Positions 14,176-63,140 of a stretch of DNA of 64,000 bases are shown piece by piece. The DNA is from Rhodobacteraceae bacterium Alg231-30 (GTDB taxonomy: Bacteria > Pseudomonadota > Alphaproteobacteria > Rhodobacterales > Rhodobacteraceae), in contig FREU01000002.1 of the NCBI GenBank assembly GCA_900143615.1, forward strand, positions 104,663-168,662, read 5' to 3'. Made by a program: the position numbers and the translations under genes. Under the pieces are notes generated by a model. It saw only the letters and a program-made list of their open reading frames with translations. It made no database searches and had not been told where the DNA came from. The number at the start of each line of letters is the position of its first letter. The stretch's first letter is position 1.

Positions 14176-14351
14176 GGTCGATGTCACCTTTCATTTCTCA
14201 CCGAGCGCGGCTGCCGTCGGGTCCCCGGCACCACACCCATACGAGATGGTCAAAATCTGGACAATTCCCGGCCACCGTCCCAAAGGCAGCCTCCCGTTCC
14301 AAACCTTGCCTTAGTCAAAGCTTTGTCAAAAGCCCTCACTAAGACAGGTTT

Positions 14352-51188: not shown

Positions 51189-51358
51189 GTAACACTCCTA
51201 TGCTGCAACTGCAGAAAATCTCTGCGTATTCTGATCATCCAGACAAAAACTGTCGTTTTATACTGCAAACTTAGCTGGTTGCACAATTCATGTGCACTCA
51301 AAGTTGACGTTGGTTCCCCTATTCGTTTCGTGCATAGCTGCTTTGCATAGCTCCCCCA

Positions 51359-51385
51359 TTGTGCACGCGCAGCATTACCCTATAT
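51359..51385 (+). promoter_or_regulatory. Possible heat-shock-sigma promoter of DUF1127-sRNA locus
   Basis: TTGTGCA at 51359-51365 and CCCTATAT at 51378-51385, spaced 12 bases, resemble RpoHI/RpoHII promoters (CTTGnnn and CCnATnT). In Rhodobacter sphaeroides the equivalent DUF1127-CcsR locus is driven by RpoHI/RpoHII. The match is loose, so this is a candidate only. Confidence 0.35.
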
Positions 51386-51440: not shown

Positions 51441-51656
51441 ATGGCCTTTGTCGCAAATCACAATCCGGTGGCTGCACGCGAAGTACGTAGCGAGCCTGGC
51501 ATCTTTGCGAAACTTGCACTGCGCTACAGCCAGTACCGCAAGTATTGCGAGACCTATAATGAGCTTTCCGCTCTGTCGACCCGCGAGTTGGCCGACTTGG
51601 GGCTGAACCACTCGATGATCCGCCGTATCGCCATCGAGGCCGCATACGAGCACTAA
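51441..51656 (+). CDS. DUF1127 small arginine-rich protein (CcaF1-like)
   Basis: 71 residues with a C-terminal DUF1127 core (ELSALSTRELADLGLNHSMIRRIAIEAAYEH). AAAGGGG lies upstream. It directly precedes four CcsR-type small RNAs, exactly as in Rhodobacter sphaeroides, where the DUF1127 protein CcaF1 is an RNA-binding protein co-transcribed with CcsR1-4 under stress. The synteny supports orthology; the product length is typical of the family. Confidence 0.9.
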   Translation: MAFVANHNPVAAREVRSEPGIFAKLALRYSQYRKYCETYNELSALSTRELADLGLNHSMIRRIAIEAAYEH

Positions 51657-51665
51657 GAATTTTTA

Positions 51666-51733
51666 GGAAGCCCACTCCTCCCTCAAGGCTTCCTTTAGAC
51701 TGCGGCGACCCGCTCCTCCCTGGATCGTCGCAG
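51666..51733 (+). ncRNA. CcsR/cuckoo small RNA 1 (divergent unit)
   Basis: Two hairpins, 51666-51693 (GGAAGCC/GGCTTCC) and 51700-51733 (stem CTGCGGCGA paired with TCGTCGCAG, one G-T pair). Each loop holds CTCCTCCCT, the anti-Shine-Dalgarno-like motif of CcsR RNAs. Stem sequences differ from those of units 2-4 and the spacing is shorter. It begins about 10 bp after the DUF1127 stop, so it is probably processed from the same transcript. Confidence 0.85.
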
Positions 51734-51747
51734 AGATACAACGAGAT

Positions 51748-51825
51748 CAAGGCGCCCCTCTCCTCCTCCCTGGGTCGTCTTGAGACTAGAGCGGCGGCAC
51801 CTCTCCTCCTCCCTGGTGCTGCCGC
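51748..51825 (+). ncRNA. CcsR/cuckoo small RNA 2
   Basis: Two hairpins, 51748-51782 (CAAGGCGCCC with GGGTCGTCTTG, imperfect) and 51791-51825 (GCGGCGGCACC with GGTGCTGCCGC, one G-T pair), each with the loop core CTCCTCCTCCCT. The linker between them is AGACTAGA, conserved in units 3 and 4. It is the first copy of an exact 110-bp period. Confidence 0.9.
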
Positions 51826-51857
51826 ACAGGAATTCGGGCGCAAGCCCAAAACAAGAT

Positions 51858-51935
51858 CAAGGCTGTTCTCTTCTCCTCCCTGAACAGTCTTGAGACTAGA
51901 GCGACGGCACCTCTCCTCCTCCCTGGTGCCGTCGC
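51858..51935 (+). ncRNA. CcsR/cuckoo small RNA 3
   Basis: Two hairpins, 51858-51892 (CAAGGCTGTTC with GAACAGTCTTG, one G-T pair) and 51901-51935 (perfect GCGACGGCACC/GGTGCCGTCGC). The loops carry CTCCTCCCT. It is the second copy of the 110-bp period. Confidence 0.9.
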
Positions 51936-51967
51936 ACAGGAATTCGGACCTAGGTCCAAAACAAGAT

Positions 51968-52045
51968 CAAGGCTGTTCTCTCCTCCTCCCTGAGCAGTCT
52001 TGAGACTAGAGCGGCGACACCTCTCCTCCTCCCTGGTGTCGCCGC
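51968..52045 (+). ncRNA. CcsR/cuckoo small RNA 4
   Basis: Two hairpins, 51968-52002 (CAAGGCTGTTC with GAGCAGTCTTG) and 52011-52045 (perfect GCGGCGACACC/GGTGTCGCCGC). The loops carry CTCCTCCCT. It is the third copy of the 110-bp period. No T-run terminator is seen right after it; the converging GST gene ends at 52080. Confidence 0.9.
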
Positions 52046-52079
52046 ACCTTCTCTCAAAAAAATCAGAAACGAGCCAATC

Positions 52080-62819: not shown

Positions 62820-62894
62820 GCGGGCGTAGCTCAGGGGTAGAGCATAACCTTGCCAAGGTTAGGGTCGGGCGTTCGAATCGCCTCGCCCGCTCCA
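62820..62894 (+). tRNA. tRNA-Gly (anticodon GCC), copy 1
   Basis: 75 bases including CCA. Acceptor GCGGGCG/CGCCCGC, D-arm AGCTCAGGGGTAGAGC, anticodon loop TTGCCAA giving GCC, T-arm GGGCGTTCGAATCGCC. The sequence from the upstream ATTCCACGCCTCACCC stretch through CCA is identical to copy 2. Confidence 0.97.
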
Positions 62895-63065: not shown

Positions 63066-63140
63066 GCGGGCGTAGCTCAGGGGTAGAGCATAACCTTGCC
63101 AAGGTTAGGGTCGGGCGTTCGAATCGCCTCGCCCGCTCCA
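63066..63140 (+). tRNA. tRNA-Gly (anticodon GCC), copy 2
   Basis: Identical to copy 1 in all 75 bases, and about 20 bases before it are also the same, which points to a recent segmental duplication (246-bp spacing). Each copy has its own terminator. Confidence 0.97.

Follow-up and report, generated by a model that had tools for sequence, protein, structure and literature searches.

An array of eight anti-Shine-Dalgarno hairpins behind a DUF1127 gene, preceded by an LsrB/VtlR-type LysR box, in a Shimia-like Rhodobacteraceae bacterium

Organization of the locus

The window (the whole stretch of 64,000 nucleotides analysed here, from contig FREU01000002.1 of Rhodobacteraceae bacterium Alg231-30) carries a DUF1127 gene followed by four covarying two-hairpin units and preceded by a conserved LysR box and the elements TTG and CCTATAT. 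The features are as follows:

51331 to 51345, plus strand: LsrB/VtlR-type LysR box TGCATAGCTGCTTTG, with GCAT-N3-TG-N3-T exact at 51332-51344 (motif, matrix, conservation)
51359 to 51385, plus strand: candidate core promoter, TTG (51359-51361) and CCTATAT (51379-51385) (24-locus same-genus alignment)
51441 to 51656, plus strand: ccaF1-like gene, DUF1127, 71 aa (PF06568, E 1.3e-10)
51665 to 51694, plus strand: CcsR unit 1, hairpin 1, anti-Shine-Dalgarno (anti-SD) loop (sequence, fold, constrained fold)
51700 to 51733, plus strand: CcsR unit 1, hairpin 2, anti-SD loop (sequence, fold, constrained fold)
51748 to 51782, plus strand: CcsR unit 2, hairpin 1, anti-SD loop (repeat, fold; CcsR1 40.5 bits at 51744-51830)
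51791 to 51825, plus strand: CcsR unit 2, hairpin 2, anti-SD loop (sequence, repeat, fold)
51836 to 51847, plus strand: small linker hairpin GGGC-GCAA-GCCC between units 2 and 3 (sequence, fold)
51858 to 51892, plus strand: CcsR unit 3, hairpin 1, anti-SD loop (repeat, fold; ar14 45.2 bits at 51852-51945)
51901 to 51935, plus strand: CcsR unit 3, hairpin 2, anti-SD loop (repeat, fold)
51946 to 51957, plus strand: small linker hairpin GGACCTAGGTCC between units 3 and 4 (sequence, repeat, fold)
51968 to 52002, plus strand: CcsR unit 4, hairpin 1, anti-SD loop (CcsR1 49.3 bits, E 8.3e-11, at 51965-52050)
52011 to 52045, plus strand: CcsR unit 4, hairpin 2, anti-SD loop, without a U-run after it (sequence, Rfam, fold)

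The DUF1127 protein matches PF06568 at 41.3 bits (cut-off 23.3) and no family in NCBIfam, and homologues are present in 23 of 23 other genomes from the same genus. It has the same length as CcaF1 of Rhodobacter sphaeroides, likewise 71 aa (PMC10253847). Only 8 nt separate its stop codon from the first hairpin, and on the other side of the array a glutathione S-transferase-like gene is oriented toward it.

The motif CTCCTCCCT occurs eight times in the 64 kb, always on the plus strand between 51675 and 52034 and nowhere else in the window, while shuffled sequences held 0.28 copies on average and none of 100 reached eight. Each copy sits in the loop of a hairpin, and the eight hairpins form four pairs at 51665-52045 (plus strand). 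The surrounding 412 nt (51654-52065) fold at -177 kcal/mol (z -9.08), a stability equalled by none of 100 shuffles, and all eight hairpins passed a local constrained fold with a criterion of at least five stem pairs. Units 2 to 4 are direct repeats of 110 bp, spaced 110 and 110 from start to start and with 84% and 75% identity to the first copy, and unit 1 (51665-51733) has diverged and falls outside this period. The original prediction of eight consecutive hairpins sharing a loop motif, placed directly behind a DUF1127 gene and with the last three units at an exact 110-bp period, is therefore borne out by these analyses. The complete 9-mer CCUCCUCCC is found in five of the eight loops (3, 4, 6, 7 and 8) and CUCCUCCCU in all of them. 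The linker hairpins between units 2/3 and 3/4 differ in sequence (GGGC-GCAA-GCCC vs GGACCUAGGUCC). A terminator scan returned none for the array on the plus strand, and a 16S rRNA gene was not found in the assembly.

Relation to CcsR, NfeR1 and AbcR RNAs

The best Rfam matches in the window are CcsR1 (RF02791; 49.3 bits, E 8.3e-11) and ar14 (RF02344; 47.2 bits, E 3e-7). A covariance-model search, the check proposed along with the original prediction, was thus positive for both models, but both scores lie under the gathering scores of 65.3 and 58.8, which are curated cut-offs and not biological features. Remaining families reached at most 28.4 bits at the array (E >= 0.19), and ar15 had no match in this stretch. 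Across 20 related loci the ar14 cut-off was passed in three (the same-genus locus L021 with 59.2 bits, L112 and L116) and the CcsR1 gathering score in none. Because of the matches in the window and the three related loci above the ar14 cut-off, the array is continuous with the ar14/cuckoo group, in a gene order that corresponds to the ccaF1-CcsR arrangement.

DUF1127-CcsR-type associations are frequent in alphaproteobacteria and have been named CIN1 (PMC10253847). In R. sphaeroides, ccaF1 and the CcsR RNAs are co-transcribed from an RpoHI/II promoter (PMC3320616; see also PMC3688512 for this arrangement), and the RNAs originate from the 3' UTR with the involvement of RNase E (PMC8625941), which acts first in their processing and is followed by PNPase (PMC7866481). 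CcaF1 is an RNA-binding protein whose gene shares a transcript with CcsR and which influences CcsR maturation (PMC10253847, PMC8307010); FlhR is a CcsR target (PMC8307010), and RS0680a has two stem loops with an anti-SD motif in each (PMC3927594). Compared by published description, the R. (Cereibacter) sphaeroides locus ccaF1-CcsR1-4 (RSP_6037/RSs0680a, RF02791) shares with the window a 71-codon DUF1127 gene whose 3' UTR holds four CcsR units, each of two anti-SD-loop hairpins, as well as RpoH-like promoter elements. It differs in that the window sequences stay under the Rfam cut-off, that the window's first unit has diverged, and that an LsrB/VtlR-type box goes unmentioned in the accessible portions of the R. 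sphaeroides descriptions. The homology to ccaF1-CcsR that had been proposed for this array is supported by the gene of 71 codons, the tandem two-hairpin units, the Rfam matches and the recurrence of CTCCTCCC downstream of DUF1127 in 104 out of 104 loci (see below). Judged by sequence, this is a ccaF1-CcsR (CIN1/cuckoo) locus of a Shimia-like Rhodobacteraceae and of a kind already known.

Two groups of rhizobial RNAs are similar in other respects. NfeR1/alpha-r14 (RF02344, ar14) likewise has several hairpins with one anti-SD loop, is activated by LsrB and has an upstream box of the same kind, but it is a trans-acting small RNA of 115 nt that forms three hairpins, is served by a sigma70 promoter of its own, lies outside a DUF1127 3' UTR and is independent of Hfq (PMC10746234, PMC8844928). 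AbcR1 and AbcR2 (alpha-r15) are also anti-SD small RNAs, under LsrB (AbcR1) or RpoH1 (AbcR2), with targets that are largely transport and metabolic mRNAs (PMC8844928). They differ by carrying two distinct anti-SD motifs, and the window's array lacks an ar15 match.

Conservation and stem covariation

Related loci were collected from the same genus (24, the window's own included) and from named Rhodobacterales (80, the best of 126 matches), which were fetched through the DUF1127 protein with an alignment of 12 of the 24 same-genus proteins as query. Removal of 16 duplicates from these 104 left 88 distinct loci for the logo, covariation, matrix and VtlR-motif counts. All 104 loci, among them that of the window, carry CTCCTCCC after the DUF1127 gene, and 102 of them at least twice. 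Copy numbers range from 1 to 15, with a single copy in two Tropicimonas loci. The largest arrays, with 15 anti-SD motifs, belong to two species of Limimaricola (L094 and L106), and 13 motifs were counted in Salipiger mucosus (L128). No array was present in six more loci whose DUF1127 matches were weaker (L025-L030), and among these L025 alone had a motif, a single one.

At least nine of ten stem pairs could be formed at 459 of 534 loop sites in the 88 loci, as opposed to 21 of 503 sites drawn at random from these loci and scored alike. The most frequent loop geometry, seen at 196 sites with 95 distinct stems, has 96.6% of its stem cells paired, compared with a mean of 62.0% and a maximum of 64.4% in 3'-arm shuffles, which are inflated by kinship and did not undergo the choice of stem boundaries for maximal pairing that was applied to the loop sites and the random-site control alike. 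Nine of ten stem positions in this geometry show five or six pair types. Because of the effect size and the number of pair types, there is little doubt that the covariation is real despite kinship and boundary choice. Variable, covarying stems around a strongly kept anti-SD loop, a feature of the alpha-r14/cuckoo superfamily, are hence present in this set. As an RNA, the array is one more member of a studied family, and its main use lies in displaying stems that vary while the loops stay fixed.

Tandem repeats of 110 bp and motif numbers that change from 1 to 15 between loci could also be expected from a neutral satellite or from expansion of a mobile repeat, with no function as RNA. The covarying stems and kept loops of 88 loci already contradict such an origin, and the constant position behind DUF1127 and the Rfam matches argue against it as well. 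A neutral repeat is scarcely credible here.

A conserved LysR box and an RpoH-like promoter

The region upstream of the DUF1127 gene contains an LsrB/VtlR-type box that did not form part of the original prediction. When the 24 same-genus upstream regions were aligned, a block GCATArCnGCnTTGC appeared, with TTG 26-27 nt from the block start and CCTATAT after it. A GCAT-N3-NG-N3-T box precedes the DUF1127 gene in 104/104 loci (88 distinct), and in 84 of the 87 loci aligned the TTG of the -35 element, a feature that was not imposed, begins at +26 or +27 counted from where the box starts. The logo was built from 87 loci, leaving out L073 (segment too short, probably a wrong start); its GCAT, G8, T12 and mostly C6 were imposed by the selection pattern and have no proof value, and its free positions include T-10 (86 loci), C-8 (85), G13 (85) and T27 (87). 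A matrix derived from 63 loci of other genera ranks the window site first in 64 kb (19.3 vs 9.4 for the runner-up; 18.0 vs 14.2 with the matrix core alone), and the exact sequence GCATANCNGCNTTGC has a single occurrence in the genome.

GCAT-N3-TG-N3-T is the VtlR/LsrB box of Agrobacterium, Brucella and the Sinorhizobium meliloti promoter PabcR1, in which it spans -61 to -49 (PMC7486931, PMC8844928); the distance between box and promoter in the window is about the same. The window box agrees with the Brucella VtlR motif (PMC12595884) at 13 of 15 bases. At up to two mismatches it is the only match in 64 kb, a uniqueness that is weak when taken alone because 24 of 100 shuffles also yield at least one match. 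At up to three mismatches the motif is found in 57 of 88 upstream regions vs 3 of 362 control windows, leaving 31 of the 88 upstream regions without a match. The Rhodobacterales logo, with TGC at -10 and GCAT at 0, furthermore resembles the NfeR1 motif TGCA-N6-GCAT (PMC10746234), and the window itself has TTC in place of TGC. Upstream of the box, at 51303-51324, the same-genus alignment contains another conserved block, TTGACGT..CGTC..TATTC, with partial dyad symmetry; in the logo of 87 loci it is not conspicuous.

The candidate core promoter resembles the S. meliloti RpoH1 consensus CTTGAA-N16-CCTATAT (PMC8844928) with a spacer 1 nt shorter, and the distance from TTG to CT falls one below that of the RpoH positions given for R. 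sphaeroides (PMC3441632). A sigma70 promoter scan found nothing. The promoter appears RpoH-like, although sigma70 is also possible and the sequence is not decisive in separating sigma factors.

The exact form of the box matched in 105 of 241 genomes of the class, and none of the 30 loci returned contained a DUF1127 gene (a regular-expression match in L260 was not DUF1127-like). Among these loci and 10 chosen stretches, a box beside DUF1127 and anti-SD motifs was seen in G142 alone, which is a family member; in G213, also of the family, two of four box matches were examined and had neither DUF1127 nor anti-SD motifs nearby. As a class-wide marker the exact box was accordingly rejected as uninformative outside the family (30 loci and 10 stretches examined). 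A separate observation concerns G142, in which a second LsrB-type box (L269, G142:C1:2820700-2822500, positions 378-530) is followed 110 and 149 nt on by anti-SD motifs. No DUF1127 gene lies between them and the second motif is in a strong hairpin, so this is possibly a stand-alone NfeR1-like RNA beside the ccaF1 locus. An LsrB/VtlR-type box before a Rhodobacterales DUF1127-CcsR locus was undescribed in the open-licence literature searched, a scope outside which the primary CcaF1/CcsR/cuckoo papers fall.

A putative LsrB orthologue

In Rhizobiales, a LysR regulator of the LsrB/VtlR type activates DUF1127 genes and anti-SD small RNAs, and for the DUF1127 proteins of Brucella the primary regulator is reported to be VtlR (PMC12595884). 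One clear candidate for such a protein is encoded in the window genome at G000:C8:120834-121697 (L201:2293-3228, minus strand; C8:120834 hereafter). Its best solved relative is 9HH1, the Agrobacterium LsrB (PMC11975290), with 252 bits vs 113 for the next, and the helix-turn-helix regions of the two proteins align closely. The candidate is 51% identical to the trxB-linked LysR protein of genome G024, to which the other own LysR proteins are at most 32% identical (8 of 13 compared; these 13 are further LysR-type matches at E <= 1e-15). NCBIfam gave nothing over its cut-offs among the matches listed. By similarity, C8:120834 is a putative LsrB orthologue. An LsrB-like protein occurs once each in 197 of 199 family genomes (E <= 1e-60). 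LsrB has been reported as unique to Rhizobiales (PMC11975290), but because of these 197 genomes at least its homologues are spread more widely.

In its published location, lsrB is linked to trxB and lies directly behind it. The same arrangement of a LysR gene is present in G024, G026 and G027, and in G029, G081 and G110 the gene is near trxB. A regular expression for LysR proteins had given 0 of 12 trxB loci, or 3 of 39 after loosening, and was too strict, missing G024, G026 and G027, which were found by protein search. The regulator as a neighbour of the window genome's own trxB was rejected, as that gene adjoins one judged by eye to be Lrp-like. The LysR gene itself has one degenerate box match upstream (GCATTAAGGTTTT, -54), too weak to count.

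The alignment to 9HH1 indicates that the LsrB cysteines C144/C273 and C236/C244 are all replaced in C8:120834, whose reading frame has its sole Cys at residue 200. As the LysR proteins of G024, G026 and G081 contain zero cysteines, the LsrB cysteines may have been acquired in Rhizobiales and not lost here. The regulon of Agrobacterium, Sinorhizobium and Brucella is similar in its LysR regulator, its GCAT-N3-TG-N3-T box and its DUF1127 and anti-SD small RNA targets. It differs in that DUF1127 genes and small RNAs are named as separate targets and in the linkage of the regulator gene with trxB, and the Shimia protein has none of the four Agrobacterium LsrB cysteines.

By homology, we infer a link between the box and this regulator, and the LsrB-like protein may bind there. 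Alternatively, RpoD or RpoH alone could drive the locus, or the box could serve another LysR protein or a different factor. The R. sphaeroides account, as far as it is accessible, names RpoHI/II alone (PMC3320616), which fits this alternative together with the reported restriction of LsrB to Rhizobiales, the Lrp-like neighbour of the own trxB and the 13 other LysR-type matches in the genome. Against it stand the agreement of the box with the VtlR motif, its PabcR1-like distance from the promoter, the far greater closeness of C8:120834 to LsrB-type proteins than that of the 8 other own LysR proteins compared, and the close alignment of its helix-turn-helix with that of Agrobacterium LsrB. A locus without LsrB-like input is on balance doubtful, and a role for the LsrB-like protein is preferred.

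Motif copies elsewhere and candidate targets

Elsewhere in the genome, CTCCTCCCT has 18 further copies, of which 16 are single and two share one locus (L031, G000:C6:334000-336500). There, at 1103-1165, a short repeat holds both copies at a distance of 54 nt, and the sequence around them folds weakly. None of the 18 sites lies in a comparable array, and other tandem anti-SD arrays in the genome were rejected. At 8 of the 18, the opposite strand has AGGGAGGAG just ahead of an ORF start. L040 and L047 were considered as anti-SD hairpins, since a fold with the motif in the loop is possible, but were dismissed as their opposite strands are Shine-Dalgarno sites.

The pattern GGGAGGAG-N2-9-ATG occurs 22 times in the genome, compared with once for the reversed control pattern. 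At nineteen of these sites an ORF of 60 codons or more begins (three were dropped), and Pfam names 18 of the 19. Five of the 19 candidate targets are solute-binding proteins (three DctP, one Peripla_BP_6 and one NMT1); others are acetyl-CoA synthetase, a DUF4212 protein, thiolase, acyl-CoA dehydrogenase, a sulphur transporter and two CO-dehydrogenase-type subunits. The predicted list, which comes without a genome-wide baseline, resembles the bias of NfeR1 and AbcR toward transport and metabolism.

The loops could instead act mainly as protein baits, in which case the array would sequester CcaF1, Hfq or another RNA-binding protein, or tie up RNase E, and pairing with mRNA would be secondary. 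Eight near-identical loops in one RNA would suit such sponge-like binding, the reported RNA binding of CcaF1 and its effect on CcsR maturation (PMC10253847, PMC8307010) provide a partner, and in the loci examined the motifs come after a DUF1127 gene, though these loci were fetched via that gene. The loop is nonetheless complementary to Shine-Dalgarno sites, and a reporter assay controlled with loop mutants showed that the homologous NfeR1 loops silence ntrB (PMC10746234). Baiting as the main function is improbable, and pairing of the loops with mRNA is favoured.

Proposed mechanism

Taken together, an RpoH-type promoter with LsrB-like activation probably gives rise to a ccaF1-4xCcsR transcript that is matured by RNase E and CcaF1 and whose loops block Shine-Dalgarno sites. 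Upon stress, RpoH would produce a single transcript from the conserved promoter, with the LsrB-like LysR protein (G000:C8:120834-121697) as upstream activator at the box. RNase E and CcaF1 would help to release the CcsR units, and the CUCCUCCCU loops would pair with AGGGAGG-type Shine-Dalgarno sequences and thereby keep a group of mRNAs for uptake and carbon metabolism from being translated. The presence of eight redundant loops could provide a higher dose and many targets per transcript. What we infer in this scheme is transcription, processing, binding and targets in this organism.

Perhaps the locus also belongs to an ancient alphaproteobacterial circuit of an LsrB/VtlR-type LysR protein, DUF1127 and anti-SD hairpin RNAs, condensed to one transcript in Rhodobacterales and equipped with a regulator lacking the redox cysteines (proteins checked). 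The signal would differ because those cysteines of Agrobacterium LsrB are absent. The chances for this reading are evenly balanced and are placed no higher, since the published motif at three mismatches is missing from 31 of 88 loci and regulator orthology is by similarity only. The promoter box is weightier than the array. If the interpretation is true, it links the CcsR stress RNAs of Rhodobacter to the LsrB/VtlR regulon of symbionts and pathogens, the confinement of LsrB to Rhizobiales needs qualifying, and R. sphaeroides ccaF1-CcsR, described as RpoH-controlled, has a second, unrecognised input.

Other RNA features of the window

Apart from the array, the window contains a Rhodo-rpoB RNA (RF03074) at 14206-14300 on the minus strand (68.6 bits). 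Two tRNA genes on the plus strand, at 62820-62891 and 63066-63137, have identical Rfam scores and starts 246 bp apart, and are perhaps duplicate copies.
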